Assembly: GCA_003159495.1 (NCBI GenBank)
Contig: PLPI01000030.1
Location: forward strand, 11,523-53,120
DNA: 41,598 bases
DNA from: a candidate division FCPU426 bacterium
Lineage (GTDB): Bacteria; Oederibacteriota; PGYV01; Palsa-1178
Reading direction: 5' to 3'
In this document: piece after piece, positions 8,916 through 33,700 of the stretch
How positions within the stretch are numbered: position 1 is the stretch's first letter
Layout of the letters: each line of letters opens with the position of its first letter
Program-made: the position numbers and the translations under genes
Notes under the pieces: generated by a model
Databases searched by the model: none
Seen by the model: the letters and a program-made list of their open reading frames with translations, nothing else
What the model was told of the DNA's origin: nothing

Positions 8916-8944
8916 ATTATATCACAAAAACCGGGGTTTTTCTA
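8916..8944 (-). promoter_or_regulatory. promoter of the glycosidase gene
   Basis: A perfect TATAAT (8916-8921, minus strand) lies 17 bases after TAGAAA (8939-8944), which matches the -35 consensus at four of six positions and overlaps the TAG stop of the upstream gene. Only seven bases separate the -10 box from the ATG at 8908, so transcription should start at or beside the initiation codon. Confidence 0.55.
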
Positions 8945-9595
8945 AAATTTCGAAAAAGGATTTTTCAGTATTGCGGCAAAAAAACACTGTATCAAGAACG
9001 CGGTGTAAAACATTCCGGCATGGCCCGCAAGGTTCTTTTCCATGGTGTAATATTCCAGCGGCTCTGATTTGCGCACCACAATGAAAACCGCGCACAAAAA
9101 CGAGACCGGCGCCGATATCCACGGGGTCAGGCGGCCAAGGACCGAAATTTTCATAAAAAAAGCGGAAAATATCATTAGAAAAAAGGCCGGGTAATAATTC
9201 CCGCCGTTTAAAAGCGCGCCATAAGCCGGCGGAATCATCAGCAGAATAATAAAAAAACTGCCAATAAATATATAAGGGATGTAAGGCCCGGGGGAAAACA
9301 GAAGAAACGACGCGGCGGCGGCCATGAACAAAAGTTCATAAATAAGCACCCCCGGCGAGTAATCCCCCGTCAGCAGATTAAAGCAGGCAATAACGAGCGC
9401 CCAGGACGCGGGAAAATACCACTGAATAATGGCCGGCGCCGTATGCTCCGCCAGGATGGCGCCCGCGGTTAGCAGAGCTAAAAATACGGAGACTGCCGCA
9501 GGAATTTTTTTGGGTTTTATTTTATAGCCGGTGCCGGAACGTTTTATAAAGGCAAATACGGCGGCCGACGCGGCAAAAACCGCAATGTCGCCCAT
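8942..9595 (-). CDS. polytopic membrane protein of unknown function (217 aa)
   Basis: I do not recognise this protein. It is 217 residues long and almost entirely hydrophobic, with about seven or eight membrane segments (roughly 3-18, 30-48, 57-76, 83-100, 105-125, 134-152, 158-175 and 195-212). Loops are short, and a few charged residues sit near residues 176-185. It is the last gene of a five-gene run of membrane proteins: its ATG at 9595 comes one base after the stop of the 53-residue gene, with AAGGAC a few bases upstream. The next gene has its own promoter overlapping the end of this one. The tight packing implies a membrane complex with its neighbours. No catalytic motif is visible. Confidence 0.7.
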   Translation of the reverse strand: MGDIAVFAASAAVFAFIKRSGTGYKIKPKKIPAAVSVFLALLTAGAILAEHTAPAIIQWYFPASWALVIACFNLLTGDYSPGVLIYELLFMAAAASFLLFSPGPYIPYIFIGSFFIILLMIPPAYGALLNGGNYYPAFFLMIFSAFFMKISVLGRLTPWISAPVSFLCAVFIVVRKSEPLEYYTMEKNLAGHAGMFYTAFLIQCFFAAILKNPFSKF

Positions 9596-9596
9596 A

Positions 9597-9758
9597 TCAT
9601 TTGTCCTTTTTGAAATTGTCCGCGAATAACAGCAGGTTCAGGACAAACGCGCCGGCCATAAATATGGAGGTAAAAGAAAACGGCGCAAAGATAAAAGCTG
9701 CCACGGTAATTGCGGCTATGCAGAACAGATATATGAATGTTTTTACTTTTAACGACAT
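9597..9758 (-). CDS. small membrane protein (53 aa)
   Basis: A short gene fills the gap between two larger membrane genes. The ATG at 9758 follows the TAA of the upstream gene by four bases. An AGGTGG ribosome binding site overlaps that stop, seven bases before the ATG, and the TGA ends one base before the next start. The 53-residue product begins MSLKVKTFIYLF and has two hydrophobic segments (about 7-22 and 26-45) and a charged tail ending ADNFKKDK. Its tight placement with a ribosome binding site argues that it is real. It may be a small subunit of a membrane complex formed with its neighbours. No family was recognised. Confidence 0.7.
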   Translation of the reverse strand: MSLKVKTFIYLFCIAAITVAAFIFAPFSFTSIFMAGAFVLNLLLFADNFKKDK

Positions 9759-9762
9759 TTTA

Positions 9763-11031
9763 TTACCACCTGTAAAAAAGGGCGGCGGTCAGCCCCCCGT
9801 ATAATATCAATTTCAGCGCGCTTTCATTAAAACTTAATTTTAAGCGCGTGTCAACTCTAATAAGCCGGAGCGCTATGGAGGCCGCGGCAAATATCCTGTT
9901 TAAGACGGCCGGCATGTAAATAACAACGGCGATTATGGCCATTGCCTGTACGGCCGGAATGGATGACATGCCGTTTTTTATCCCGGCTATCAGGATTATT
10001 TCGACTCCGAGATTTATAAGCTGGGCGACAAGCCCGGCGGGGCTGTTTTTAACCTTTAAAGGGCTGAGTTTAAGCGTAGTGACCGTGATATCCGGCCCGT
10101 TCGCCCTAATCAGTTCATATGATGCCGCCGCCGAAAGCAGTATGCCGCACGCGGCTATTGCGGCTGTTTTTTCATCCGGCCCGGCGCAGGAAAAATACAA
10201 AAGCGCGAGAAAAATCATGTTTGCGAAATCCCTTACGGCGTATGACATGTATGATTCCTCGGTTATTGATTTGAACATCGCAAACCCAAGGATTATGCCG
10301 GCAAAAAGGGTCATATATACCGGCGACCAGCCGGGTGTTTTCATAAGCGATGAAATTATCACTATCTGCGCCCCGGCCGTCATTGACTGCAGGAAAAACC
10401 TTGACGGCGCGTATTTTACGGAGAATGGAGCGGGTTCCCTTTTGCTGAAAGTATAGAATGTGAACGGCGATGAAACCACGAGCGCCGAAAGCAGTCCCGT
10501 ATATGCCATGCCAGCCCCCCTGCCGGACGCCGTAAGGTAGAATTCAAGCATAAAAAAAGAGGCAAAAAAGAATATAAAGACCTGCGCGGCCGCCTCCGGG
10601 GACGGCCCCGTTTTCTCCCTTATATCGCTTCCCGAAAAGACAAAGAAAAATGCCCCCGTAAGGCAGAACAATATTGAGCCGGTGGCCGGATCGCCGAAAG
10701 CCGACGCCAGAATGACGGCTAAAAACATTCCCGCGGCCGGAAAGTAAAAAAGTTTATCCTGCCGCCCGTAAAGGCATAAGGGCGTTATAACCAGCGCCAT
10801 TATCGTAAAAATTACCGCGCTTCTTCCCGCGCATGCGGGGAAATGGCTGTTGCCGGTGTACAGGTATAAAAATCCAAAAGAAAGCGCCGACAGGGCCGAT
10901 ACCGCGGAAAAAATATTTTTTTTAAGGTTCCCTGTTTGAGGCGCAAGGACATGGAGAGCCGCAAAAACAACAGCGGCGGCACCGGCCAGCACCGCCGGAA
11001 AATAAAAAAAGAACCGTTCTACATTCATCAT
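9763..11031 (-). CDS. large polytopic membrane protein of unknown function (422 aa)
   Basis: This 422-residue protein has about twelve hydrophobic segments spread over its whole length and no soluble domain. A central stretch (about 200-225, KYAPSRFFLQSMTAGAQ) faintly recalls the APS..SA helix of proton-translocating NuoM/HyfF/Mrp-type subunits. The conserved lysines and glutamates of those pumps are not apparent, so I do not assign it to them. The start codon overlaps the stop of the upstream propeller gene by four bases (ATGA at 11028-11031), showing translational coupling. The TAA is four bases before the 53-residue gene. It is likely the main membrane subunit of the cluster. Confidence 0.65.
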   Translation of the reverse strand: MMNVERFFFYFPAVLAGAAAVVFAALHVLAPQTGNLKKNIFSAVSALSALSFGFLYLYTGNSHFPACAGRSAVIFTIMALVITPLCLYGRQDKLFYFPAAGMFLAVILASAFGDPATGSILFCLTGAFFFVFSGSDIREKTGPSPEAAAQVFIFFFASFFMLEFYLTASGRGAGMAYTGLLSALVVSSPFTFYTFSKREPAPFSVKYAPSRFFLQSMTAGAQIVIISSLMKTPGWSPVYMTLFAGIILGFAMFKSITEESYMSYAVRDFANMIFLALLYFSCAGPDEKTAAIAACGILLSAAASYELIRANGPDITVTTLKLSPLKVKNSPAGLVAQLINLGVEIILIAGIKNGMSSIPAVQAMAIIAVVIYMPAVLNRIFAAASIALRLIRVDTRLKLSFNESALKLILYGGLTAALFYRW

Positions 11032-12269
11032 CTGTAACCATTGACCGCGATGCGCGCTATCACCCTTGACTGCTGGCAGGCGGCAAAGAGCGTCCTGCCG
11101 TCTTTTGACAGGCAGAGATACTTGGGCAGGTAGTTTTTAAGGCTCATGGTAAAGACCGTTTTTCTCTGCTTTATATCCACAAAAATTATCTCGTCTTTGA
11201 GCGGAACCGAGACGTAAAGGTATTTTCTTGATTTTGACAGCACAGCGTCAAATATGCCGCCATCGACCATTATGTCATATTCCATTTTATAATTTACCCT
11301 GTCGAACAATATTATTGAACTCTGGTGGTTGAAAGCGTATTCCCACTCATTAATAATGGCGATATCCCTGCCAGAAACCGGCACGAACCGCAGCGGTGAA
11401 ATTCCTGTGTCAATCCTGGTAAAAACGGGCTCGTCTTTTACCGTGTCTATAACCTGCACCGTGTTCGTGTATTTACATAATACGTAAAGATAGCGCCTGT
11501 CCGGGGAAAGATAAAGCGCCGAGGGCCATTTTCCGACCGGAATTTTTTCCTTTACCCTGATATCCGCGCCCTGCAGGTTTATTACCGATAAGTTTGAGGA
11601 ACCGGTATTTGCGGCATAAAGCAGACCCCGTGCCGGGTCAAGCGCCAGAGCGCACGGCGCTTCTCCTCCGCTTGCCGCCTGTATGCTTTTGCCTGTTATC
11701 ATGTCATGGACCGTTATTGAATTCGATGACTTGTTCGCGATATAAAGCTTGTCGCGGTTAAATATCATATCAGATGGCATATAACCCGCCGCTATGGCCG
11801 ATTTCTTCCTGAAACTGACGGAGTCATAAATATAAACCACGTTCCCCGTTTCGGAGCCGGTAAATATCTCCGCATTGTCCCTCATTGCTATTTTTGACGG
11901 GACGTAATCAAGGTTTAGTTCCCCGGTAAGGGCGGGCATTGCGGATTTTTTATCCGCGCAGCCGCTTGAAAAAAGCGCCAGAAGCATCATGGCCGCGCAT
12001 AAAACGACAAAACCCCTGATGTTTTTTTCAGCCTTCAAAGAACTGGAAAGCGCTGTTATAACCGCGGCCGCCGCCGCAAACGCGCAGAAATATATCCACA
12101 GTCTCGGGTTAAGCGAAAATCCTTTTGATATCACGGCCCAGGCAACCGCTCCTTTTACCGCGATCAGCCCGGTTATAAGCGCGCGTTTCATATCGGTTTT
12201 AACGGATACAAAATATGCAAAGGCAGCCGCAAGGAAGGATTCAAGGATAAAAAAATAGGCGTCAGTCAT
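11028..12269 (-). CDS. membrane domain fused through an internal lipobox-like segment to a YVTN-type beta-propeller
   Basis: Residues 1-80 of this 413-residue protein form three membrane segments. A basic stretch and hydrophobic core (84-103) then lead into FSSGCADKK, which looks exactly like a lipoprotein signal with C104 as the lipid-accepting cysteine. Residues 120-413 are beta-propeller repeats of the YVTN/surface-layer type, with blades such as LYIANKSSNSITVHD (175-189), LLYAANTGSSNLSVINL (216-232) and YLYVLCKYTNTVQVID (260-275). No Met codon is near residue 84 and no ribosome binding site supports a separate start there, so it appears to be a fusion. It overlaps the upstream gene by eight bases and the downstream one by four. 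The propeller would sit outside the cytoplasmic membrane as a binding or sensing platform. Confidence 0.7.
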   Translation of the reverse strand: MTDAYFFILESFLAAAFAYFVSVKTDMKRALITGLIAVKGAVAWAVISKGFSLNPRLWIYFCAFAAAAAVITALSSSLKAEKNIRGFVVLCAAMMLLALFSSGCADKKSAMPALTGELNLDYVPSKIAMRDNAEIFTGSETGNVVYIYDSVSFRKKSAIAAGYMPSDMIFNRDKLYIANKSSNSITVHDMITGKSIQAASGGEAPCALALDPARGLLYAANTGSSNLSVINLQGADIRVKEKIPVGKWPSALYLSPDRRYLYVLCKYTNTVQVIDTVKDEPVFTRIDTGISPLRFVPVSGRDIAIINEWEYAFNHQSSIILFDRVNYKMEYDIMVDGGIFDAVLSKSRKYLYVSVPLKDEIIFVDIKQRKTVFTMSLKNYLPKYLCLSKDGRTLFAACQQSRVIARIAVNGYR

Positions 12270-12681
12270 TTTTCCGGGCCGCGCTTTCTTTGATGATAAA
12301 ATACCCCGCTGTAAAAAGCATGCAAAAACAGATAAATATGACCGTCGGAGCGGCTGTGATGGGTTTTATGGAGGCGGCCCTGGCCGACGCCGCGGCCGCT
12401 GATATTGCCGCAATAGCCGCGGCCGCCATAAGGGCGGCGGGTATTTCACGCGGTGAAAATGACATTTTTTCAAGGGGTGCAAGGATGATTATGACGGTAT
12501 TCATGACAAACCCGGTTATGATAAAAAATACTATTGAAGGCGCCTGAACGCCTGATAAAGCCATAAGGCCGGCGCAGGCGGAATCAATGATAATAAGCAG
12601 CCCGAAACGCAGGATGTGGTTTTGCATATAAGCCGCGGCCAGGCTCAGGCCGATAATCAAAGGCAGTAATTCTGCGGCCAT
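12262..12681 (-). CDS. small polytopic membrane protein (139 aa)
   Basis: This 139-residue protein has about five hydrophobic segments (5-20, 24-42, 47-69, 82-98 and 108-130), an unusually alanine-rich stretch between 84 and 104, and a basic tail. Its size and layout recall NuoK/HyfE/MnhC-type subunits of ion-pumping complexes, but no diagnostic acidic residue could be matched, so that likeness is only a lead. A GGGGTG site lies eight bases before the ATG at 12681. It follows secF by 25 bases with no visible terminator between, so the five-gene membrane cluster may be read through from secDF. Its stop overlaps the next gene by eight bases. Confidence 0.65.
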   Translation of the reverse strand: MAAELLPLIIGLSLAAAYMQNHILRFGLLIIIDSACAGLMALSGVQAPSIVFFIITGFVMNTVIIILAPLEKMSFSPREIPAALMAAAAIAAISAAAASARAASIKPITAAPTVIFICFCMLFTAGYFIIKESAARKND

Positions 12682-12706: not shown

Positions 12707-13630
12707 TTATTTCCCGGTCCTGTTCTTTCTTTCAAAATTCTCCCAGTCAACGATTATGGGCGAGGCAAGAAAGTCCGAGGAATATGTTCCAACAACAACT
12801 CCGATCACCATTGCCAGGGAAAATGTATGAAGGACATTTCCGCCGAACAAAAACAGGCACAGGGCGACCGAAAATGTGGTAAAAGACGTGATTATTGTCC
12901 TGCTTAAAACCTCGTTTATCGATACATTAACCAGGTCGTGATAGCTGACTTTTAATATATGTTTCATGTTCTCCCTTATCCTGTCAAAAACAACCACGGT
13001 GTCGGTTAGTGAATATCCCGCAATGGTCAGAAGCGACGTGATGACGAGCATGTCAACTTCCTTATTTAAAAGCATGAGTATGCCGAGCACGGCCAGCACG
13101 TCATGCAGAGTGGCTATTGTGGCCGCGACCGCAAACTTAAACTGGAACCTTATCCATATATAAACAAGTATTCCCAGAAGGGCCCAGAATACGGCGTAAA
13201 AGGCGGTTTCTTTTAACTGTGAACTTACAAGCCCGCCTATTTCGTTTTGTTCCTGCACCACCATATCGGGATCCCCCATGCCGGTCTTGAGCACGTCGGC
13301 AAGCGATTCGGATGCGTTTGCTGTCTTTAAATCCTGCGTTCCGACCCTGATAAGAAATATTTTGTCCTCCGGGGTTCCTATCTGCTGGATGACTGCGCCG
13401 CTTATTTTGGCGTTGTTGAGCGCACTGCGGACGTCGTCGACCTTAACATCCTTTTTAAACTGGACCTGAACGCTGATGCCGCCCGTAAAATCCAGCCCCA
13501 TTTTCGCCTGGCCCGAGGCTATCTTGTAAACCGCCCATAAGCCGTTCAACACGAGTATAATGGAAATCACGTAGGTAATTTTCCTGGCCCCTATAAAATT
13601 TAACTTGGTGTTCTTTATTATTTCAATCAT
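12707..13630 (-). CDS. secF: SecF protein-export membrane protein
   Basis: This 307-residue protein is a typical SecF, which with SecD uses proton motive force to pull exported proteins through SecYEG. It has an N-terminal membrane helix (about 18-36), the GLDFTGGISVQVQF segment (45-58), a periplasmic P4 domain, and five C-terminal helices containing LTIAGYSLTDTVVVFDRIREN, the hallmark of SecD/SecF transporter domains. A GGAGG site sits six bases before the ATG at 13630. It lies 12 bases after secD and is certainly co-transcribed with it. Length and motifs are normal. Confidence 0.97.
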   Translation of the reverse strand: MIEIIKNTKLNFIGARKITYVISIILVLNGLWAVYKIASGQAKMGLDFTGGISVQVQFKKDVKVDDVRSALNNAKISGAVIQQIGTPEDKIFLIRVGTQDLKTANASESLADVLKTGMGDPDMVVQEQNEIGGLVSSQLKETAFYAVFWALLGILVYIWIRFQFKFAVAATIATLHDVLAVLGILMLLNKEVDMLVITSLLTIAGYSLTDTVVVFDRIRENMKHILKVSYHDLVNVSINEVLSRTIITSFTTFSVALCLFLFGGNVLHTFSLAMVIGVVVGTYSSDFLASPIIVDWENFERKNRTGK

Positions 13631-13642
13631 CGTTTTCCTCCG

Positions 13643-14983
13643 TTATATGCTTAATGTCTTGTATTGTTTTCTGAGGTCAAATACCGACTGCGTTATGAAA
13701 AACGCCGTAAAGAGGGATATCACAAGCCCCCAGAAAAGCGTTACCGCGAAACCGCGTATGGCGCCCGTGCCAAACTGGAAAAGAATCGCCGCTGTTATCA
13801 ATGACGTTATGTGGGAGTCAAGAATGGTGAGCCACGCCCTGTGATAACCCGCGTCAATTGCCGCGCGTATCGTCTTGCCGCCGCGCATTTCCTCCCTTAT
13901 CCTCTCGAATATAAGCACGTTTGCGTCGACCGCGATGCCTATCGTAAGGGTCAAACCCGCTATGCCGGGAAGTGTAAGCGTCGCGTTTAAAGCCGCAAGT
14001 ATTCCGAGAACGAATAAGACGTTGAATATAAGGGCCAGATCGGCGATAAGACCGGAAAATCCGTAATAAAAGGCCATAAAACATATTACGACAAGCGCCC
14101 CGATAACGATGGATTTCTGTCCCTTGGCTATGGAATCCGCGCCGAGCGAAGGCCCGACCACGTATTTATTAATTATTTTCACGGGAGCCGGAAGCGCGCC
14201 CGCGCGCAATACCAGCGATAGATCCTTTGCGTCGTCAAGGTTAAAATTCCCCTCGATGATGCCCTCGCCGCCGGAGATCCTTGTCTTGATGACCGGATCT
14301 GAATATACCTTGTCATCAAGGATGATGGCGAGTTTTTTGCCCACGTTATCTCCCGTGAGCTCGGCGAATTTCCTGCCGCCCTCCGGAGAAAACTTGAACC
14401 ATACAACCGGTGTGCCGTATGTTCCCATCTGCACCTTTGCGTCGACAAGATCGGCGCCGGTTAAAAGGTCTTTTGTAAATATCGGGGTCCTGTTCCCTTC
14501 CTTGTCGGCTAAAACCATAACACCCTCGGGTATCTTTGAGGCCACCGTGTCGCCGGCCGCGTCGGTCATTTCAGATATCTTATCGCGCTCGTCAACCATC
14601 TTAAACTCAAGCAGCGCCGTCTTTCCTATTATATTAAGCGCCCTCTCCGGATCCTTTACGCCCGGAAGCTGCACCACGATTTCCTTGTCGCCTTCCCTTG
14701 TGATAAGCGGTTCGGCGACGCCGAGCGCGTCAATCCTGTTGCGCAGTATCTCAAGGGCGCGCGAAACAGCCTCTTCAAGTTTTACATTGGCAGGCATTTT
14801 ATCCGTATCAATGGCAAGTTTTAAATACATGCCCCCCTGAAGGTCAAGGCCGAGCTTTATCTTGCCCTTTTCAAGCACGTTGCCCTGGCTGTCCTTTTTG
14901 TCAAATGGCGGGTTTAAACTCACAATTGAGAACACCAACAAAATAAGAGTTATTATTGCCGTTATTTGCATCCTTCTCTGCAT
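13643..14983 (-). CDS. secD: SecD protein-export membrane protein
   Basis: This 446-residue protein is SecD, the partner of SecF in the proton-driven step of Sec-dependent export. It shows a first membrane helix (8-24), the IKLGLDLQGGMYLKL motif (41-55), a periplasmic region with the ALEILRNRIDALGVAEP segment, and five C-terminal helices bearing GLTLTIGIAVDANVLIFERI and AGYHRAWLTILDSHITSLIT. An AGGAGG site lies about six bases upstream of the ATG at 14983. The 116-base gap to the transketolase gene (14984-15099) has no convincing promoter or terminator. Export of the large secreted proteins elsewhere in the window would depend on this system. Confidence 0.97.
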   Translation of the reverse strand: MQRRMQITAIITLILLVFSIVSLNPPFDKKDSQGNVLEKGKIKLGLDLQGGMYLKLAIDTDKMPANVKLEEAVSRALEILRNRIDALGVAEPLITREGDKEIVVQLPGVKDPERALNIIGKTALLEFKMVDERDKISEMTDAAGDTVASKIPEGVMVLADKEGNRTPIFTKDLLTGADLVDAKVQMGTYGTPVVWFKFSPEGGRKFAELTGDNVGKKLAIILDDKVYSDPVIKTRISGGEGIIEGNFNLDDAKDLSLVLRAGALPAPVKIINKYVVGPSLGADSIAKGQKSIVIGALVVICFMAFYYGFSGLIADLALIFNVLFVLGILAALNATLTLPGIAGLTLTIGIAVDANVLIFERIREEMRGGKTIRAAIDAGYHRAWLTILDSHITSLITAAILFQFGTGAIRGFAVTLFWGLVISLFTAFFITQSVFDLRKQYKTLSI

Positions 14984-16048: not shown

Positions 16049-17830
16049 TCACTCACCGCATCCCAGTTCTTTTAAAGCCCGCGCCTCTTCGTCCTGCGTC
16101 GGCGCGACGCCGTGGTATTCAACCTTTCTTTCCATAAACGATATTCCCTTTCCCTTGACCGTCCTTGCTATCACAATGCTCGGCAGCCCCTTTACCTGTT
16201 TTGCCGCGTCAAATGCCTCTATTATCTGCTCGTAATTATGGCCGTCGATTTCAATGACGTTCCAGTTAAAGGCCTTCCATTTTTCGACGAGCGGTTCGAG
16301 CCCTGATTTCACCTCGCCGATTGAGCCGTCTATCTGAAGGCCGTTGTAGTCGAGTATGGCGCAGACATTATCAAGCCGCCTGTGGTAGGATGTCATGGCC
16401 GCTTCCCATATCTGCCCCTCCTGCATTTCCCCGTCGCCCATCATCACATAAACCCTTGTTGGCAGTCCTTTTAACTTTGCGGCGAGCGCCATTCCGTTTG
16501 CCACGGAAAGCCCCTGCCCGAGCGAGCCGGTTGTCATGTCAATGCCGGGCGTCTTTTTCATGTCAGGGTGGCCGGAAAGGCCGCCCCCTATTTTTCTCAG
16601 GTTCCAGAGCCTCTCCTCGGGGAAAAAGCCCGCTTCCGCAAGCGCTGCGTACAGCGCCGGTGCCGCGTGCCCTTTTGAAAGGACGAACTTGTCGGCCCCT
16701 TCCATTTTGGGTTTTGCGGGGTTCACATTCATTGTGTGAAGATAAAGCGTCGATATCACGTCTATCGCCGAGAGCGAGCCGCCCGGGTGCCCCGATTTTG
16801 AACAGCCGAGCATTTTTATTATGTTAACGCGCATCCTGTTGGTGCGTTTTTCAACCATCTTTATGGTTTTGCTGTAATCCCTGTAATGGCCTCCGAGGCC
16901 GCTGCGGCCCGCGAAAAATTTGTCCAGTTGGGCCCTTGTCGGCATGCCCTCCTGCGCGCCGGTGCGTGTGGAGTTCATCGCGCCCGAAGCGTTGGCGTAT
17001 TCCACCGCGTCCTGCATGGTTTTTCCGTCAAGCAAAGCCACGGCCAGCGCTCCGGCAAATGCGTCCCCGCCGCCTATGGTATCCACCACATTAACTCCGT
17101 AACCGGGAAAAACCCCGGCGCCCTTTGAATTTACGAGAAGAGCCTCGCGCCCCATTGTTATGATTACATTTTCCACGCCGTGGGCAAGAAGCTCCCTGCC
17201 GGTTAAGCATCCCGTTTCCATATGTGATATCACCCTGTTGGAAAGGTAGCCGCCCTCTTTTTCGTTCATTACTATCAGGTAACAGCCCTTAAGCAGGGAC
17301 ATTACATCTTCCCTTTTTTTGCCGGTGAGCGCGCCCACACTGACAATGACTTTCTTTTTGTTTTTAATGCCGAGTTCGACCGCTTTTTTTACGGTGTCAA
17401 GGGGCAGTTCCGTGCATACGAGCACCATCGAGGAATTTATAATGGCGGCTTCCGCCTTTTTGATATCGGCCGGGGTCAGGCTGTTGTTTGCGCCGGTGTA
17501 CCACGTCACCTTATTTCCCTTTTTTCCGGTGGTGTTGACCATGGCAATGCCGGTCTTTAACTTTTTGTCTTTTATCATATATTTTAAATTAATGTTCGGG
17601 TGCGAAAGATTTTTAAGGGAATTTCCCATTACAGCATCTTTGCCGATTTTCGCGACAAAATTCACCTTCTTGCCGAGCCGCGCTATTGATACCGCCTGGT
17701 TGGCTCCCTTGCCGCCGGGAAGGAAATAAACTTCGTCGCCGGATATGGTCTCGCCGCGCTCCGGCATGGAAAGAGTCCTTACAAGAATGTCAAGATTCAC
17801 GCTTCCGATAACAGCTACTGTGTCTTTCAT
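16049..17830 (-). CDS. fusion of a PfkB/ribokinase-family sugar kinase with the transketolase N-terminal (TPP-binding) subunit
   Basis: This 593-residue protein joins two enzymes. Residues 1-308 are a PfkB-family kinase closest in style to ribokinase: VIGSVNLDILVRT (7-19), the PGGKGANQAVSIARLG motif (38-53) and the catalytic DTIGGGDAFAGAL (250-262, D256 the likely base). Residues 318-593 are a transketolase N-terminal domain: SGHPGGSLSAIDV (346-358), SKGHAAPALYA (385-395), TTGSLGQGL (433-441) and the thiamine diphosphate/Mg motif GDGEMQEGQIWEA (465-477) to DYN (494-496). Catalytic landmarks are present in both halves and no stop or frameshift separates them. A CAGGAG site precedes the ATG at 17830. 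The likely role is to phosphorylate ribose or a similar sugar and feed it to transketolase. Kinase specificity is inferred. Confidence 0.9.
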   Translation of the reverse strand: MKDTVAVIGSVNLDILVRTLSMPERGETISGDEVYFLPGGKGANQAVSIARLGKKVNFVAKIGKDAVMGNSLKNLSHPNINLKYMIKDKKLKTGIAMVNTTGKKGNKVTWYTGANNSLTPADIKKAEAAIINSSMVLVCTELPLDTVKKAVELGIKNKKKVIVSVGALTGKKREDVMSLLKGCYLIVMNEKEGGYLSNRVISHMETGCLTGRELLAHGVENVIITMGREALLVNSKGAGVFPGYGVNVVDTIGGGDAFAGALAVALLDGKTMQDAVEYANASGAMNSTRTGAQEGMPTRAQLDKFFAGRSGLGGHYRDYSKTIKMVEKRTNRMRVNIIKMLGCSKSGHPGGSLSAIDVISTLYLHTMNVNPAKPKMEGADKFVLSKGHAAPALYAALAEAGFFPEERLWNLRKIGGGLSGHPDMKKTPGIDMTTGSLGQGLSVANGMALAAKLKGLPTRVYVMMGDGEMQEGQIWEAAMTSYHRRLDNVCAILDYNGLQIDGSIGEVKSGLEPLVEKWKAFNWNVIEIDGHNYEQIIEAFDAAKQVKGLPSIVIARTVKGKGISFMERKVEYHGVAPTQDEEARALKELGCGE

Positions 17831-20673: not shown

Positions 20674-21708
20674 CTACGGCGCAAAAACCTGCACCCTGTT
20701 GTTATTCATGTCAACTACATATATATTTCCCGACGAATCAACTGCCACGCCAACAGGGCCGTCAAATTGCCCGTAATTTTTTCCGTATTCCCCCCATTGC
20801 GCCAGATAATTCCCGCTTGAATCAAACTTTTCAATCCTTGAATTACCACTGTCAACGACGTAAACATTGCCATTTGTGTCAACAGCAATCCCCGCAGGCC
20901 CGTTGAATTGGCCGTTTTCGGTTCCCGTGCCTCCCCATTTTAACAAAAAATTAAATGATGGATCGAATTTTTGCACCCTGTTGTTATTCATATCAGTAAC
21001 ATATATATCACCGTTTTGCTGAATTGCCACGGCAACGGGCACGTTAAATTTTCCATCTCCGGCCCCCAAACCACCCAATGTTTGCATGTTCGCCTGTGTG
21101 GAGTCGAGTTTTACAATTCTATTATCACCTGTATCCGCCACGTATAAATTATTATTCATATCTGTTGCGAGCCCGTTCGGATTTAAAATCAGAACACAGT
21201 TTCCCCATTGTTTAATAAATTGATTGTTGGAATCGAAAACTTCTATCCTGTTGTTGCCATTATCAGCAACATAAACATTGTTGTTGCCATCAATTGCAAT
21301 TCCAAACGGTTCATCAAATTTTGATTCACCGGTTCCGCTGCTTCCCCACTGGGATAAATATTGCCCGGATGAAGTAAATTTTTCAATCCTGTTATTTTTC
21401 AAATCGCACACATATATATTATCGTTTTTATCAATTGCAATTATCACAGGATGATTAAACTGCCCATTTCCGTTGCCCGGATGCCAATAGTCTGTGCCAA
21501 TAACCAGAATAGGCTGTTTCGGCGTCGGCGTTACAGTGCACGTGGCTGTCACGGTGCATGTGTCAGTTGCCGTGAACGATAGCGCTATCGTCGTCATGGT
21601 GGCATTTGGCGTATCAGTAGGCCCCGGCTGTGTCGGCCCCTGCTTTTTGCAGGAATTAAGTATTACAATAAATGAAATGATTAAAACCACGAAAACTGTT
21701 TTTTTCAC
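20674..21708 (-). CDS. NHL-repeat lipoprotein
   Basis: This 344-residue protein has a lipoprotein signal (VILNSC, lipid-accepting C20), a Thr/Pro/Cys-rich linker (24-66) and six NHL repeats that should form a six-bladed propeller. Each blade carries a variant of IYVxDxxNNRIxxF, for example IYVCDLKNNRIEKF, VYVADNGNNRIEVF and IYVVDMNNNRVQVF, with phrases such as GNGNGQFNHP between them. The start is a GTG at 21708 with a GAGGAG site seven bases upstream. It follows the giant gene by 31 bases and is probably the last member of that operon. NHL propellers usually bind proteins, glycans or RNA. Its location on the membrane surface suggests a binding rather than an enzymatic job, and the ligand is unknown. 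Confidence 0.85.
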   Translation of the reverse strand: MKKTVFVVLIISFIVILNSCKKQGPTQPGPTDTPNATMTTIALSFTATDTCTVTATCTVTPTPKQPILVIGTDYWHPGNGNGQFNHPVIIAIDKNDNIYVCDLKNNRIEKFTSSGQYLSQWGSSGTGESKFDEPFGIAIDGNNNVYVADNGNNRIEVFDSNNQFIKQWGNCVLILNPNGLATDMNNNLYVADTGDNRIVKLDSTQANMQTLGGLGAGDGKFNVPVAVAIQQNGDIYVTDMNNNRVQKFDPSFNFLLKWGGTGTENGQFNGPAGIAVDTNGNVYVVDSGNSRIEKFDSSGNYLAQWGEYGKNYGQFDGPVGVAVDSSGNIYVVDMNNNRVQVFAP

Positions 21709-21739: not shown

Positions 21740-24700
21740 CTATCTTATCAGCGCCATCTTCATTATAACCCTTTTATTCACAGTTTTCACCTCACAAATA
21801 TATATTCCTTCCGCGGCTCTTTCGCCGCTGTTATTCACTCCCGGCCATGATACATAGTTTATCCCGGCTTTAACGGCCTCAATGTTTTTCTTCCATACCA
21901 GCGAGCCGTTCATGTCATAAATCCTGACGCATACATCCTCTGCCATGGCAAGGGAGAAGCGTATCGTCGTCTCCCCGCTGAACGGATTCGGGTAATTGTA
22001 TGTATTGCTCTCGTTTAAATCCTCATACTGGCTTTTTGCCGTTTTCAGCCGCGTAACTGAAAGCGCTCCCATACCGCCCGGCGCATTTCCCCATATCAGC
22101 GCGCCGTCAAGGTAAACAGTCATATTGTTCCACACCGAATAATCCTGGAAAACCGTAAAACTCCAGTCATTGCCCTGGTCATAAACACTCCAGTCCGTTT
22201 TATTAAACCTCGCCTGAACCTCCGCGTATTCACCCGGATTTATGCTTCCCGCTCCCGCCGCAAAACCTATCTTTAAATACCTGTCCTGCGAACCGAAACT
22301 GCCGTCAATTATCTGACTGCTTGTAAAGTTTTCTATATGTTCCCCGGAAACCATCTTAAAGGCCGCGTCGACACATGACTGTTCGGACTGGTTTGTCCCT
22401 TCAAACTTATACCAGTATCTTATCTCAATTGCGCTTAAATCCACCGCGGAAGAACCGTTGTTGTAAATCCTGAACCACGGGTGGGGGGAATTTGTGCTTA
22501 TATCATTTATGGCGTCTTTGAACTCCAGCGTTATGCCGTATGTATCCGGCGTGATTGTCGGCGTAATAGTTGCGGTTGATGTCATCGTTATTGTATTAGT
22601 CGGGGTAAAAGTCGCTGTTTTTGTCAATGTTTTTGTCGCGGACGGCGTTATTGTGCGGGTGCGTGTGCGTGTCGCCGTATAACTCGGAGTTAATGTGGCG
22701 GTTGTTGTGAGAGTCGCGCTGTTAGCTGCCGTTCCCGTGGCTGTGGATGTTGTTGTTACAGTTATGGTTGCCGTGGAAGTTTCAGCGGCGGTATTTGAAG
22801 GTGTGATATCCGGCGTTAATGTTTCCGGGGTTGCCGTGCCCGTCGCCGTAGTCTCTGCCTGCTGTGTCGCGGTGCCGTTTATAGTCATGCTTTCTATCGG
22901 CGTCACGGTGCCCGTCATTACAGCCGTTAAAGCACTGGTTTGCGTGACGCATGGCGTCATAGTGGCTGACTGCGTATTTGTCAATGTCGCTGTGATGGCG
23001 GGTGTATTCGTAAAACTTGGCGTAATTGTTGCCGTATAAGAAGGCGTTGCAGCCGCGCTTGATACCGCCGTAGGCGACGTTATAGGCCCGGCAGTGCCCG
23101 GTTCAATTCCCCATATCAATACGCCGTCATAATAGACAGTCACCTGGTTCCACACCTGAAAATTCCATGTGTTTAAATAACTCCAGTCATTGCCCTGATT
23201 GTACGCGCTCCAGTCGTTCTTGTTGAACCTGCCGTCAACCAGCAGTGAATCCCCGGGCTGTAAATACCCCGCTCCGGCGCCGAACGAAACCGACAGATAC
23301 CTGTTTTGCCCGCTGCCAAAACCTCCGGTTACGATGGACGCCTCTGAAAACTGTGTCAGGTTTGTTCCCGCGTTCATCCTGCCCGCGTAATCGATTACCG
23401 CCGTTTCAGCCTGTCTGGTTCCCTCATATTCATACCAGTATCTTATCTCGATTTTACTTGCATCCAGGGTAAGCGCGCTTATATTGTCCAGCTTAAAGTC
23501 CGGTTTTGGTGAATTCGTGTTGTTATTGTTATCCCCGGATTTATATTCCAGTTGTACGGGTATTATCACATAAAGCGCAAGCGACCCGGCGTTTTCCGTA
23601 TTTGAAACCATGTCAACGGAATAATAACCCAGGTTGTAAATTCCAGGTGTAAGCGTAACAGGCGACGCGTATTCGCCGAAACTTCCGCCGTTCATGCTGT
23701 AATAGGTTTTGTATATTCCCGAAGGTATTGATCCGTTATCCACCGCATTGAGTGAAAAAATACAGCTTTCCGCCGTTACTGTCAGCGCGCCCGCGGAAAC
23801 CGTCACGGTATTGCCGCCGTAAACAATCGAAGCCGTGGTGGACGGCGCCCTGTCGTCAACCACAAAACGCTCCAGGTTGCTGCCATAACCTAAAAACGCC
23901 CTGTTGTTTCCAACATTGTCAACGCCGGTTGTCTCGATTGTATGCATTCCCTCCGCAAGGTATGTCACGCCAAAAGGGGCCGCGTTAATCGTGCCTGACA
24001 TAAAAGTCTGCGGCGCGGATGCGTCTATTCTGTAATCTATCTCCTTTACGCCGGAGCCGCCGCCGTCAAAAATATCATTCGCGGTGATGCTAAGTTTTGA
24101 ATAATTTCCGTTTATATAAACCAGCGAACCGGCCTGCGCCGTTGTTGTCAGGACCTTCGCGCTTCCGGTGTCCGCCGCCGTTACCAGTGACAGGTCATAT
24201 TTAATTTCATCATCCGTCGTTTCGGTTGTATTTAGCAGGCTGTCAACCATGGCAGGCGTAAAAATATCAGACGCGGTCGTTGTCAACTCCGCGACTATCG
24301 CCGCCCTGTCCCAGCTTGTTATGTCAGCCGGGAAAGTTACGCCAACGGCTGAAACCGTCCCTGTATCCCGCCAGTATGGCGCTATAATATCCAGCACCGT
24401 ATCGGGTGGATTTGTGTCCATAAACAATCCGCCGGATTTTACCGCCTCAGTGTTCCCGTTTTTGTCCGTTGACCTGAAATATACGGCCGCGGGTGTGTTT
24501 GAATACGGGCACACAAACGGCGTTGTATAATTATTGAAATACCCGGGGTCGGGATTGTTGAAATTATATCCGGTGTTATATACTCCGGAACTCTGCTCGC
24601 CGGCGGAAGACGCGTCCGACGCATTTAATTCTATCAGCGACCCGCTGTTAAAATATATGGCGCCCGATGATGCCGTATAACTGTTTCCAATTATATCAAG

Positions 24701-27700
24701 AACCGTCACCGGCGCGGCCGAATCCGGCATTATTGTCAGATACGACCCCGCGCCTATATTGCCGCTGCGGTCGACTCCGGCCACATAATATGTATGGCTC
24801 GTATCCGAACCAATGTCAAATCCCGTGCCTGAGAGCATGTCGGCATATGCGTTTATTGTTACCGGGCCGGCCGTTATCAGGACGTTATCCCTGTAGATAT
24901 TGTATCCCGCCAGATCGCTTGCCGTGGGTGTCAGCGAATCCCAGGATAACATGTTTCCTATATAATTCAAAGCGGCCGACGGTATGTTTTGCCTGTAACC
25001 CTTCAGGTTTTTCAGCTGATCCGGCGGCCGGGTATCTATTGTAAACGTATTATGCCCTGTCCCTGTATTTCCGGCAAGGTCATATCCCAGCACTTCCACT
25101 GTTATGCTTGAATAGACGTAAGTTGCCTTAACCTGCATTACTGCGTTAAAGACATCTCCGCCGCCGGTGACAGGCGCCATTACTGATTCCCAGCCGCTTC
25201 CATTGCCCGTCAAAGCGGAAATCTTTACCTGCGGAAGTCCGGCTATAGGCTCGCTTGCATTAATTATCATATTATAATTCCCTGTTCCAAGGGGCTGGTA
25301 ATTTGTAAGGCTGACGCCGAACTGCGGCCTTTTTGTATCAACGGTTATGGTTTTTGAAGCATAAACTTCCTGGCATGTATTATCACTGCACAGCGTAACC
25401 CCTGCCACGGCCTCAAGGAGCCCCTCATAATTGTCAAGTTCCGGCGGCCCGACAACATACTGGTATGTGCTCTCGCCTGTCAGGATGTTTGTCCCTGTCA
25501 CCACAATATTGCTTATTTTCGCAGGGTCAACGGTCAGGGTAACGCCCGATGGATATTTATAGAGGTTAATCGACGGCAGTTCGCCCTCCAGATTGGATTT
25601 TGCCGAAATTAAAAGAGTGTCCCCGAGTTTCGCAATGTCCCTGTCGGTGGTTATGGACACAGGAGTCATGCTTGTATTGATATAAAAATATCCCTGTCCG
25701 CCTCCGGTGTTGCCGAGCATGTCAACACCGGAAAAATCAACTTCGGCCTGGCCGGATACTCCGGCAGGCACGTTTGCCGCAACGCTGAATTCAGCCATGT
25801 ATTCGCTTACCGGCGCAAACATGGTCCACGGCGTATTTCCAATGGAATCCGTTACAACAACCGTATTTGACGATGCGTCAATAAGCGACGCGCTTACCTG
25901 AGCGCCGGTCATTTCATTGCCGGTTATCTGCACCCCTGCAAGGGTATATGTATTCGCGCCTATTACTATTGTCTTCCCGTTCCACCAGCTCACAGGCGGG
26001 AATGCAAGCGTCTGCCCCGGCGCCGTATTTATAAGCGTGAGGCCTGTTGTACAGTTGGTGGAAGTCGAAAGTGTTCCCGAATCATGATTGGAAGGATTCA
26101 TCGGGTCAATACACGACCAGTTGGTTGTTCCATTTATAATACTGTTGACGCTTATTTCATTGGATGTATTTCCCCTCTGGTCAACAAGGGTAATCCAAAA
26201 TTCATTAGACCTTGACTGATTTGACTTACTTATATCACTTGAATACGTCCCCGCCCTGTTTATATAATATGTTTTCGCAGGCAAGTTTGTTCCCGGGTAA
26301 CTGAAAACCACCGCCGTTCCAGCAAGCATTGTATTTGATTCCCCGTCACACGGCATGCCGGCGTCACCCACGTTACCGAGGATTAACTGGTACGGGTCAT
26401 AATCACTGTTAGTACATATTGTCGTAACGGATGTCGTACCGCTCATGTAGGGTTTTATCTGCCGGGTAAATGTCAGCGGCACTGTCCTGCCGTTTTTGTA
26501 TGTCACATTCAAATCAGGCAGGGTAACACTGCCTGTAAGATTTGTACCGAGTGTTTTGGTCGATTTGATATAAATATCCACAACGCTCTGCATGCCCGCC
26601 GGATCCGGCGATGCGCTGAACTGAAACGACGGCGGGTCCATGTTTGGTATCAGCTGTACCGTGGAAAAAGAGGTCAGTTCCGTGGTAATTACATGGTTTT
26701 CTTTGTCAACCAGAGACGAGATAAGCATTAGTTCTTCCTGCGTGCCTCCCGGGGGTATGTCAAGCTTATACAGCGACAGTGTGGACTCGTCATATCCGCC
26801 GAGCTGTTTCGGATCGTATGTAATGGTCAAAACCGCGGGCTTCGGAATATTGCCTAGAGAATCCATGGCAAAATCATCGGTTCTTAAATGGTCGCCCTCC
26901 GACTCGCCCGGATTTACAGCCAGAAATGAATATATCAGGGAAGCCGGTATCAAACTGCTCTGTAAAATCGGAAGTTCATTCCTTTTCAGCGGCGTTATTG
27001 TTATGTATTTATCCTGCCTTAACGCTCCGGCCGGGAAATACAAGAACGCCTGTTCGTAGGCGTCTGTTGCCGTTCCGCCGTCCTTTGCGGTTATCTGGTG
27101 GCCTATGTTTATGACCTTTTTTGACTGGTATGCCTCAAAATCACCGCTGTTATTTACAACCACCGACAACATTATGTCATAAGCGCCTATCTTATCCTTT
27201 ACCGGCAGGTACCCGAGCACGCCCTGAGCCGTCATCGTACTGCGCTTGAACTCATGATACACGTCATTTTCAGCAGAGTCGTCCATTTTATACGAAAGCG
27301 CGTAATATACGAGATTCGCCACATTTACCGTGCCGCTGATTTTAACATACGTTATGCTGTCATATGGGGTTGCCGAAGGCTCCCTTAATTTCAATGTGAC
27401 CTTGTCGATATTGTAATCATCGTATGTAAGCCCAATTCCAAAATCAGAATCCGCCGTTGAAGTGGCAGAACCAAAGCTTATTTTGTACTCGTTTGTAAGT
27501 GATGTCTCGGAAACGCCTCCCGCAAGCACTATATCATTGTCATATCCGGCGCCGTCAGGATACATCGGCCCGTTTATCGTCCACCCCGATGTATGTGGCA
27601 CAGAATCCGGCCCGGGGACCGCGCTGCCGGTTGCCGTCACCTGAGCGGCCTCGCTCTGGTTCGGGAAAGGGTTGATTCCGCCGCCGTATGTATTGTTTAA

Positions 27701-30700
27701 ACTCTGGAATATATTGACTTTCTGCCCCGTCTGCGTCCCGCCCTGGTTGAAAACAACCACATTATCCCTTACCGCAACGGGTGTTGGAATGGACCAGTTC
27801 TCCGTTAAATTCTGTGCGGTTACAGTTACCCCGCAGGTGAAAACATCCTGATTCCAGCTGTTATTTGAAATATCAACAGACAGCAGAGTGTTTCCTCCGT
27901 TATCCGCAACCGCGTAATAATCAGAATATGTCACGCCTGAAACTGTAAATATATATGCTATCGATCCATTATTAACACTATTACCTATAATTTTATTTTT
28001 AGCAGCTACTACCTGATCGTCAAGGTTTATGGTCTGGCCGGGTAATATATTTGTTTTGTTGTATTGTATGTCATCCGCATGAACGCTTATTGTATTGCTA
28101 AAATAATATATCGCATTTGTGTTAAATGAATTTGTTATTCCCACGGTAAAATCCTTAATAATTTCAGTAACCGCCATTGTTGCCTTTAAACCGGCGCTTA
28201 TATTAAAATTGGCGCTTTTGCCGTAGCTCAAATTTATTGTTCCCGACTGCGTCCCCTCATTTTTTTCATTTGCCGTGCCCGTGCATGTGGAACAAACAGT
28301 ATCGGTTACGGAATAATAATGTTCGCCTTCAGGTATCAGTCCTCCCCCTATTCCCGTTGCAGCGGAAGTTATAGCCGCGCAACTTACATTTATTAATGGC
28401 TGTCCAGTGGCTGCGTTGTTTGGATAAAACGGATTTGAAATAACTCCGTGCTGCGGTTCATCGTTCCAGTCTGATTTATTTTGAGCCGTAAAAGTGATTG
28501 TAAAAAAATCGGAGTTCTCGCGATGAGCATAAATTATATCTTTGCCCTGTATAGCGCCCGCTACTTTCGAATAACCGGAATCGTTATTTATATCATAATA
28601 TGCCATTTTTAATGCTGTCGTTTCTGATTGGATACAAACCTCACCTTCCTTCGCATTAACATTTCCGGTTATGGTATCCCCACGGTTTACAATGAAATTT
28701 CCTTCATCACTTCCAGAACCTGACTTATAGCTATTACCATTCCATGTTATTTCCCAATCTCCATTACCACATCCACTAGTGCTTGCGGTCCAGGCTAATG
28801 TCTGATTGTAAGGTACATAAAACTTAAAATTATCCGATGTATTACATCCCCAACAACTCGATGTTTTATTTAATGAAGGTTCTATTGAATGTTGATCCAC
28901 CCAGTTCTCCGTCGCGTAGCCCGTCACCGTGTATGTCACGGCCATCGGCTTGTCGTACATCCCCGCCCCTGTTGCCGTGAAATCAAAGAACGGCTTCGGC
29001 TCGCCGTACGCGTCCATGGTCACTCCCGGCATATCCGTTACCTGCGACGCATCGCAGGATGTTATATATACAATATTTTCCGACACAGGATTGCCGTTTT
29101 TCACGGCAGTCATACGTATGGGTACGCCTCCGATATTTATTACCTTTCCAAGATAATCCTGCCCGTCCCAGTATATCCTGTGGTCTCCGGCCTTTAAGTC
29201 ATCATCCGTTAATGTAAAATACATATAACTCGCCGGCGGCCCTCCCTGTGAAGCGCCCCACCCGGAATACAGCGTAACCGAATCGGCATCCTGATTTAAA
29301 GTGTAATCAATAGACAACTTCTCCCCGATACCCCTTACATACGTCTGCGGCGAGACCGCGAGCGTTGAGTTAAATTTAATATTTATCCCGTCAACTTCCG
29401 AAATTTCGCTGTTGCCCGCGGAATCTATGACAAAAAGTTTTATGTTCAGGTTGTTGCCTTTTATGCCGTTTATCGGGATATTCGCCAGCCAGTCGTTTGA
29501 CACGCTGTCCATGCTCCTGTTTACAAGCGTCCAGTCACCGCCGTCGGCCTGTGAATATACCTCATAATACTGCATTTTTACCGGCAATGTCTGCCCGTCG
29601 CTGTCAGTGACCCCGGCGCTTCCCACGACCGTAATGTCGCCGGTTACATCCGCCTTGGCAGCAGGCGATGTGATAGCCGCTTTTATATCGTCAGTCGAGG
29701 AATATTTCCTGATCTTTATATCTTTTTCAAACGTGTCCGCTGTAACGCTGACGGTAAAATATGAATCCGGCTGGGCCGACGCGTCCCATACTGCCTGGTA
29801 TTTAAGCCCCTGTATGTTCGTCCCGCTTATTTGAGCCAGCGTCACACCCGCGCTGTCTATAACCGTGAATGTCACCGGGCTGTAATCCGTGGTGTAGACA
29901 TCGGCTGTGAGCGTCACAACCGAAGCAAAAGGGTTCGGATTCCCCTGCAAATTATTTATTCCCGGAGGCGTCTGGACGTGGATGTTGTTTATGGTTGCCC
30001 TGTCGAGCACCCCGGTATTTCCTGAATCATCCGTGCCAAGGATAAAAAGACGCAAATCATAATCCCCGTTTACCATTGATGCCACATCAAGATCCGCGAG
30101 CGTCCCGTCGTTTATCTGGACATTATACGCCGTTGTTGTTACCGCCCCGGCGGTCGATAACAGCGGCAGGTTTATGTACGTATAGCCTTCGTCCGGGTCG
30201 TTCGAACCCGTATCCGATATATAATTTGACGGCCTGTATCCTATCCTGTAACCCTTGAACGCCTCGGCGCCGGTCGCGGTTCCTAAAACCGCCGCTATCC
30301 CGTCCGGCCGGTTCGCCGCGCTTAACGACATCCCGTCAGCCGCGGCTATCCCGCCTATCTGCGTTATCTGCGGCACTATCCTTCCTTTCACAACAAGCGC
30401 GCTTCCGGTCGTGCTGTTGCCGAACGGGTCCATGAGCGTTATCGCCGCGCGGTAAACCCCGTCCTCCACTATACCCTGTGTTCCGTCCCGCCTTGTCCCT
30501 TTGCCGTCCCATACTATGCCGTTTAGCGGCGCGGCCAGTATATTCCTGTAGTTCACGGTTTCGTCAAAATTATAAAAGTAATATTTCGTATTGTTATATT
30601 CGTCAATATCGCCGTATTTACCGGAGTATTTAAGGGTGATGGGCTGTTTGTTTTCAATGCCGTCGTACAAATCCCTCACAACCCTCGTGGAATTGTCGGG

Positions 30701-33700
30701 CATGATCTTGATGTCCGCAAAAACATATTTTGATGCCGCTGTCATGGGGAATATATAAAACGCCGTGCAGGTCCTGCCCTTAGCCTCCTCCTCGGGGTCA
30801 AAAATAAACGGCGAGGCAACCGTCGGATACCGCAAAATAGGGGCGCATGAAGCCGGCAGGACAAAATATTTTCCCTTTGCCCCGGGCTGTACTGTATAAA
30901 TTGTATATGTTCCCAGCGGATGCTCCGTTTTCAGCAGTTCCATTGCGGTCTTTGTCGCCCCTGTTGAATCCACCCCGTCAGTTTCCCTGTATATCCCCAG
31001 GTTCTGCGCTATTATATTTTCAGCCTTTGCCTTTTGATTGTCATAATCCGCGGCGCCGGCAAGGTCAAAATCGGCGTCAAAATTTTGTATGTAAAGGTCG
31101 TCGTCCGTGTATTTCACGGTTATTGTAAGCCCCGTTGAAGACGCGGCCAGCAGCCCGGAGTCCAGCGGCGGATAAATGCCGAATTTTGACGTCATCATGG
31201 CGTACTGGTCCGATTCAAATCCGTTTACCGGCCCGCTGTTTTCCGCGTATATATTGACATATGCGGTCTGCGTCAGAGCGCCCGCCGGGACATAAACCTG
31301 GAATTTCATGTACGGGTCCGTCACTATTGTTCCCGCCGTGTTTGAAACATCAATGGGCGTGCCGATGGTAAAATGTGCCCTGTCAACCTCGGCCGTACTG
31401 CTGACATAATAGTATCCCTCGTTATCGTCGTCCACGGTCGTCCTTATGGTATATTCCCCGTACAGCCGTTTGGACCATACATCCCATGAAGTCATCACAT
31501 TAAAAAGCGGTCCTGCTTCCTTATCGTTTGATATCACAATGCTGTTTGCCGTAAAGGAATTATCCCCCGCGTCGCTATTGAGCCATCCCGGCGCGTATTC
31601 GAGGCGCCATTGCCTGAAATTCATGGCGTCGGCCGCGCCCATAACCGTTACAAATGATTTTCCCGTATAAATATTCTTCAGCCTCATCTGGAACCTGCCG
31701 TCGGACGGAACCGTTGATATTATATTTCCGTTCACATCCACTATTTCAAGGTCCGGGTCCGCCGTATTGTCGGGATAAGAGACGCTGATTGCATCATTGT
31801 GCATTGAAGCGTCCACCGTAAAAATATCGCTGAGCGGCCTTTTGCCCGGATCCGCGTTAAGGTAATTTATTATGCCGCCGCCCTGCTTTAATACCTGCGA
31901 ACCTATCCCGGCAATGCCGTTTGACGACACTGTCCATATAAAGGAAGAGACCGGTATTGCCCTTGAGCCTTCCTGCGGAAATGATGTCCCGTCAAGGTAT
32001 GCGGTAAACTGCATGTCAACCCTGTGTCCGCCCGCGTTAATGGTCCATATCTTTACCGTATTCGCGCCGGCGTGCGGCAGGGGTATGTCAAGCGCCCAGT
32101 CAGCCTTGCCCTCTTTCCCGTCCGCAGTGGTCACAAGGGTTGTGTCGATTTTCAGCACGGTTGTGACCACTGGCCCGCTGTCCGCCTGCGCGTACACCTG
32201 CAAAAACTGCGGGAAATAATCCGCACCCCATCCTTCCGTATGCAGGACCGAGTTATTTGTCGTGACGCCGCATATTGAGCCGTTATAACTTGTCAGCGGC
32301 GATTTCGCGTTCCCGCTATAAGGATAAAATACCCCCACTTCACCGGGCTGGTCCACATTGTCGAGTATCTCACCCGGATTTAACTGCTGTCCCTTGCCGA
32401 AACTCAAAGAACCCATTACTTCATTTATCAAATCGCCGATAAAAGGCAGAAAATCAACATTTATGGGCAACGGAATATTAAAATTTGGGAAATCGCCTAT
32501 TTTTAATTCTTTGAATATTGCTGTCCCTTTTTCCGCAATCGCGCTTTTTAATCCCTGTATGGCGGGATTATTACTGCCGAGCTGATTTTCAACGGTGCTG
32601 AGCAGATTGCCGTTTGAAGTATTAAAAATGCTGACAATAATGGGGCCAATATTTGCTATGCCGCTTGTTATTGGTTCCGGTATAACGTGCAAAAGCTGTA
32701 ATACCTGACCGAGAGTTGACATCATCGATTCATTCACAGTAAGCGGGGAACTGCCGGAGCCGCCGCTGGCTTTCAGGGTCAAATTCTTTATCTTTGAAAG
32801 GTTGGAAGTTATGGCTGATATATCACGGTCCGCAAAATTTGTAAGCCACTTCCCACCTGATACAAGGTCATTTTTTGTCCCATCATAATTGTCTATATAA
32901 GTGGCAACCTTTGTTGCCACATCCATTACGTCATCCCACGAGATATTAATATTGTTCAGATCCGGCAGGTCCGAGTCGTTGGCACTGCACCCCATTATAG
33001 AACTTGCCAATGAACCGGAATTTATCAAATTCTTTAAACTGCTTACCGAGCTTTTTACACCGCCATATCCCGGGAAATTGCTCCCGCCCGGAAGCCTGTC
33101 AGCAATAGAATCAAGCTGTAAGTCGCTGATTCCCTTATCCAGTATCGCGTCTAATCCCCTGAAAGCGTAAGCTTTTATTGTCCCTTCGGCCCACGTCTTT
33201 ACATACCCCACTGCTCCCTGCAAAAGATACTGCCCGAATCCCGGATTGGATATCATCTGAATGCCGCCTAAAAGAGCCATTCCCACGCTTACGTCTTTTG
33301 CGACCGTTTGAAAATACATGACATCGTTAATGGCGTTCTGGTCAATACCGGTGCCGCTGCTTAAAAACGCGCCGGCTATGGCAACGCTTGTAAGGTCGTC
33401 CGCGATATGGGCATTGGTTGTATTTCCGAGGCCGGTTGTGGTGTTTGAGAGAAAATCAAGAACTCCATTGCCGCCCATGCCGTCGGCGGCAATCTTCGTA
33501 TTCCCGTTGCCGGTATCGCCGGGTTGTTTTATCGGCATCAATTCGTTCATAGCGCCGCTTATTCCGCTGTCAATGGCGCCGCAAAGGTTTCCCTTAGTCT
33601 GCCAGTCGCCCAAAGAGAGATTTTTTGCATTCATATTAATAAAAAGCAGTTGCGGCGGGTTTATTCCCCTGAAACCAAGAGATAACTTAAACATGCCGGC

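Follow-up and report, generated by a model that had tools for sequence, protein, structure and literature searches.

A secDF-linked operon in one order of candidate phylum Goldbacteria: a predicted antiporter-fold protein and a membrane-anchored β-propeller

Introduction

What kind of machine, if any, is encoded by five tightly packed genes that lie directly behind secDF in a candidate division FCPU426 bacterium? The genes, here called A to E, are found in a stretch of 41,598 nucleotides (“the window”; positions 11,523 to 53,120 of contig PLPI01000030.1, assembly GCA_003159495.1), taken from a genome of 3.0 Mb. Antiporter-like folds are familiar from redox pumps, from Mrp exchangers and from carbon uptake of the DAB type. 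A preliminary description of the window had remarked that the sizes of four of the membrane proteins (139, 422, 53 and 217 residues) recall ion-pumping complexes, and had left the set unassigned, perhaps as a new envelope machine. We find that the operon is real and old, that within the genomes searched it is restricted to one order of the candidate phylum Goldbacteria, and that it is a divergent antiporter-fold set with an unusual propeller subunit: protein C is predicted to have the 14-helix antiporter fold of the NuoN, NuoM and NuoL kind, and protein B carries a β-propeller. Literature searches found no paper on such an operon.

Results

Transcription on the minus strand runs in the order secD (13643-14983), secF (12707-13630), A (12262-12681), B (11028-12269), C (9763-11031), D (9597-9758) and E (8942-9595); SecD and SecF were confirmed by Pfam, and secF heads the same gene run as A to E. 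A gap of 25 bases separates secF from A, A and B overlap by 8 bases and B and C by 4, and gaps of 4 bases and 1 base precede D and E, respectively. Coordinates and gene order as first described were reproduced, and the statement that overlaps and gaps within the set are at most four bases holds for the gaps and for the overlap of B and C, but not for that of A and B. These open reading frames (ORFs) are not a product of chance, because homologues elsewhere in the order share their arrangement and spacing and because the ratio of nonsynonymous to synonymous substitution (dN/dS) is low. In two pairs of near relatives, one of which (loci L015 and L016) stems from a single assembly, dN/dS was 0.05-0.51 for every tested gene of A to E and for secF, without internal stops, gene E being measured in one pair only and the upper value of 0.51 belonging to gene A, with few changes behind it. 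All five genes are under purifying selection. The observation of the ORFs in the preliminary description is confirmed, and its interpretation as a whole is borne out in part.

Gene C encodes 422 residues. The AlphaFold2 model, computed with 12 members as input (mean predicted local distance difference test score, pLDDT, 73.4; predicted template modelling score, pTM, 0.76), has 14 helices when the long helix 65-110 is taken as two, which is our own reading, and shows a break in helix 7. The best Foldseek match of this model was E. coli NuoN (7nyh_N; E 1.4e-4, probability 1.00), with NuoL and MrpD also among the top matches, and the 50 matches listed were all complex I, NDH, Mrp or MBS antiporter-like chains. 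In VIA, where helical models without a clear match typically peak at Z 14, the comparison with E. coli NuoN reached Z 25.2 with 390 of the 422 residues aligned (rmsd 4.5, identity 10%), and all 50 matches listed were complex I, NDH or MBS chains. Sequence comparison points moderately in the same direction: profile-profile alignment of C with 61 pooled NuoL/M/N/Hyf proteins gave a score of 34.7 over 369 columns, while the controls gave 17.3 (MurJ), 21.7 (MFS) and 29.2 (the best of 34 reversed families). The likeness to ion-pumping complexes that had been read from protein sizes thus finds support in the predicted fold of C.

The key residues of antiporter-like subunits are given, in the part of PMC7419157 that deals with them, as a glutamate in helix 5 and lysines in helices 7, 8 and 12, those of helices 7 and 12 being termed absolutely conserved and essential; a conserved glutamate in NuoM is described in a passage of PMC9271201. 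In C the helix-12 position is acidic in 10 of the 12 members (Glu in nine, Asp in one; the others have Phe and Asn), and the glutamate of the window protein, Glu344, is aligned to the helix-12 lysine position in two of four alignment modes. The helix-5 column is not acidic, and an acid is found three residues further on in 6/12 members. Y58 and N378 are invariant, and T257, E259 and F264 nearly so.

Gene B encodes 413 residues, with three transmembrane helices followed by an internal lipobox and a YVTN/Lactonase-type β-propeller. The presence of a propeller-bearing protein in the set, proposed from the outset, was upheld by Pfam (PF10282, 51.7 bits against a cut-off of 21.7). The propeller is closest to YVTN-type proteins and is the best conserved part of B, with many invariant polar residues, for example in the motif NEWEY; aligned over its whole length B shows 34-50% identity, whereas A and C fall to 13-32%. 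Lys39, in the second transmembrane helix, is invariant (12/12 members), and so is Cys104 of the lipobox (12/12), which follows a hydrophobic stretch and is preceded by Gly in 11 members and by Ser in one, in variants such as LFSSGC, IFASGC and FFNGC. This lipobox sits within the protein and not at the N-terminus; N-terminal lipoprotein candidates nearby have similar boxes (FSSC, ISGC, AAGC). LspA, the signal peptidase II, was found in 14 and Omp85 in all 15 of 15 genomes, so that these cells probably have an outer membrane and process lipoproteins. Judging from the motif, signal peptidase II may cleave B, leaving a membrane portion and a propeller held by a lipid anchor; for this enzyme, a lipobox placed within a polytopic protein would be an uncommon target. 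The propeller of B is predicted to be extracytoplasmic. A separate propeller, of the NHL-repeat type and bearing an N-terminal lipobox, is encoded at 20674-21708 of the window.

Protein A (139 residues) has five predicted helices, and Asp33 in helix 2 is Asp in 10 of 13 members. Full-length profile-profile alignment of A with NuoJ scored 21.7, with a reversed-null maximum of 19.8, and A bears a weak resemblance to the start of B (profile-profile score 25.6); both A and the membrane portion of B are possibly of the NuoJ/NuoK kind. An assignment of A as MrpC (E 1.5e-4, below cut-off) was dropped: only 1/13 members match, and profile-profile comparison gives no support. Gene D encodes a short, hairpin-like protein of 53 residues with two hydrophobic stretches flanking a conserved PFSFTS turn, and gene E encodes a polytopic protein of 217 residues.

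A number of results weigh against the reading of A to E as an ion-coupled complex of complex I/Mrp descent. The profile score of C was reached by 2/200 block-shuffled controls (0/40 in an earlier run), and C scores just 21-22 with each NuoL/M/N/Hyf subgroup (four in all) on its own. None of the 12 C members matched PF00361 in Pfam at E <= 1, a PDB profile search with C returned no NuoL/M/N match, and no C stood among the best eight matches listed for the NuoL/M/N profile when NuoLMN, NuoJ, NuoK and Mrp profiles were run with hmmsearch against the members of A to E and 88 control proteins. The helix-7 lysine position of C is occupied by V, L, I, G or A in 12/12 members in the global alignment, the local alignment modes placing a gap there. 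As for the smaller proteins, the model of A is of low confidence (pLDDT 67) and its structure comparison gave Z values of 6.7 for NuoJ, 6.6 for MrpA-C and 6.0 for NdhG against 6.3 for unrelated nicotinic receptor helices, the absence of NuoK from the matches listed carrying no weight either way; profile comparison of A or B with NuoK or MrpC gave no support, and no relatives of D and E were found beyond the order.

Since the single-profile searches fail and the subgroup scores are low, the fold assigned to C is drawn from the model, to which sequence lends moderate support. The NuoJ-like structural matches of A are not counted, because they are tied with the nicotinic receptor helices. Profile comparison, which had been proposed as a check, spoke moderately for C. 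With the helix-7 lysine missing from every member, canonical pumping by C is unlikely; the earlier remark that no pump-specific residues are visible is correct for this lysine, but passes over the acid kept in helix 12. Among the hmmsearch matches listed, neither C nor A had a clear one; the best from A to E was B of locus L011 against a MrpA-C/DUF4040-type profile (E 0.0011), and the control L063, an uncleaned Nuo fragment, matched strongly, as expected. Single-protein searches in Pfam and NCBIfam (A to E) and in PHROGs (A, C and E) gave nothing above cut-off except the propeller of B, and PDB profile searches were uninformative for A, C and E; apart from the propeller, “unassigned” remains the correct term by sequence.

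The distribution of the set was followed in 45 genomes of the candidate phylum Goldbacteria, 14 of them in the order of the window, and in 339 genomes from elsewhere. B is present (E <= 1e-40) in 12 of the 45, all within the order (12/14 there), and C was found in the same 12 genomes and in none of the 31 remaining phylum genomes; the two order genomes without the set are 82% and 61% complete. Three matches of C outside the order, among the 339, had E 0.005-0.007 over only 35-62 columns and were treated as chance. A first scan of genome contigs gave no match, and a second gave 11 loci, all from this genome group. Gene order is kept within the order (12/14 genomes), in answer to the question of neighbourhood conservation raised in the preliminary description: in 11 of the 12 genomes a single contig carries secF, A, B, C and D in this succession, the set of G010 being split across contigs, and E was detected only in families f1 and f3 of the order. 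No A-E homologue was found in 16 other stretches behind secF, 15 outside the order and one from G007, which is one of the two order genomes without the set and whose contig stops soon after secF; in those phylum stretches where secF was called (it was not in L161, L162 and L164) other genes follow it. In assembly G009, two copies of secDF-A-B-C-D (L015 and L016) lie on separate contigs, with 83-95% protein identity (secD not included), and may be mixed strains or a duplication.

Genes flanking the set vary. A sodium/calcium exchanger-family (Na_Ca_ex) gene lies between secF and A in 3/12 genomes (G001, G006 and G011; L013 10781-11785, L033 7817-8815 and L034 9787-10782), secF being directly upstream otherwise. 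In four genomes (G001, G005, G013 and G008; loci L013, L031, L032 and L035) dnaK is the next sizeable gene downstream, separated from the set in G001 by a 127-residue ORF, and the run there reads secDF, A to E, dnaK. The position behind secDF, and before dnaK in these four genomes, suggests that the set functions in the export or maturation of proteins.

Elsewhere in the window, a single ORF (16049-17830) fuses a pfkB-type sugar kinase to the N-terminal half of transketolase, the C-terminal half being encoded by the adjoining gene; ORFs of 595-617 residues matching this fusion are found at the corresponding position elsewhere in the order. An ORF of 5093 residues extends over 21740-37021, and 3093 of its residues, searched in Pfam, gave no match at E <= 1e-6.

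Discussion

The reading that we tentatively favour, as a possibility that falls short of probable, is that A to E make up a single complex of the inner membrane that descends from complex I/Mrp stock, lacks redox parts, bears its propeller outside, is coupled to ions and serves beside SecDF. C would be the antiporter-fold subunit of 14 helices, A and the first three helices of B would probably be its small partners, in the places of NuoJ and NuoK, and B would carry the extracytoplasmic propeller behind its internal lipobox; redox and quinone parts would have no place in the complex. Protons or another cation would pass via an altered charge path (Asp in helix 2 of A, Lys in helix 2 of B, Glu in helix 12 of C), and this flow would move or gate the propeller, which in turn would act, beside SecDF, on exported proteins or on some other substrate in the envelope. 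The intramembrane charges, Asp33 of A, Lys39 of B and Glu344 of C, could form such a changed ion path, or could serve structure alone. The predicted fold of C, its missing key lysine and the outward-facing propeller of B together suggest that old pump parts have been reused for cell-envelope work. A bolder version, which we consider unlikely, would have a non-redox complex I descendant wired to Sec, in which a rebuilt Asp-Lys-Glu relay through A, B and C powers a periplasmic propeller, itself a lipoprotein that signal peptidase II has cut from a polytopic precursor.

The residues of C also admit a passive role, in which it has kept the antiporter fold, has lost ion transport and as an inert scaffold only fixes the position and orientation of the propeller and its partners. 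The loss of the helix-7 lysine in 12/12 members fits such a role, as does the lower identity of A and C, down to 13-32% while B holds 34-50%; however, the acid in helix 12 of C (10/12), the lysine in helix 2 of B (12/12) and the aspartate in helix 2 of A (10/13) are all kept within the membrane, where unused charges would presumably be costly to bury, and we regard an inert C as somewhat unlikely. It seems distinctly unlikely that the set is a functional cation/proton antiporter, a pared-down Mrp that adjusts Na+ or H+ to the needs of SecDF. Mrp subunits are related to NuoJ/K/N in the account given in that part of PMC7419157, the source genome and the order genomes hold no MrpC-family match at E <= 1e-8, so that a replacement is conceivable, and an Na_Ca_ex gene lies within the operon in three genomes; but the lysines called essential in the same account are not kept (helix 7 absent in 12/12, helix 12 acidic in 10/12), and no Mrp subunit was found above cut-off among A to E.

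The antiporter-fold subunit could instead drive an enzyme, as in DAB, the enzyme here being a propeller outside the membrane. An excerpt of PMC13144422 presents DAB2 as a PF00361 protein paired with a soluble, catalytic partner, Glu standing at the helix-12 place, and the many invariant polar residues of B, NEWEY among them, fit this reading; DabA is cytoplasmic, whereas the propeller of B is predicted outside, and no catalytic motif was identified in B, and we hold this to be improbable. That the fold match misleads, and that the five genes encode an unrelated membrane complex, is very improbable: profile evidence by itself is moderate and the model was fed by just 12 sequences, but Z is 25 across 92% of C, where helical models lacking a clear match usually reach 14 at best.

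If the ion-coupled complex that we favour is correct, a lineage-wide antiporter fold beside SecDF with an outside propeller would be a further use of this fold, and would raise the question of what powers the late steps of protein export. With NuoN, NuoM and NuoL (PF00361) of complex I and MBH, C shares the predicted 14-helix fold throughout, the break in helix 7 and a helix-12 acid as in NuoM, but it lacks a PF00361 match and the helix-7 lysine and has 10% identity, and A to E are without redox or quinone subunits. Like the Mrp (CPA3) antiporters, the set has an antiporter-fold protein and small polytopic partners encoded close together in one operon; unlike them, it shows no MrpA-G subunit above cut-off, does not keep the key lysines and has a propeller added. 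DAB2/MpsAB resembles it in pairing an antiporter-fold protein with a non-redox soluble domain and in the Glu at the helix-12 place, whereas A to E have no DabA-type (DUF2309) domain in Pfam and their soluble domain is an outside propeller. Finally, B has by sequence the propeller fold of the YVTN/Lactonase proteins (the surface layer protein 1l0q, Lp49 3bws, hydrazine synthase beta and YncE), from which it differs in having three membrane helices and an internal lipobox joined to the propeller.

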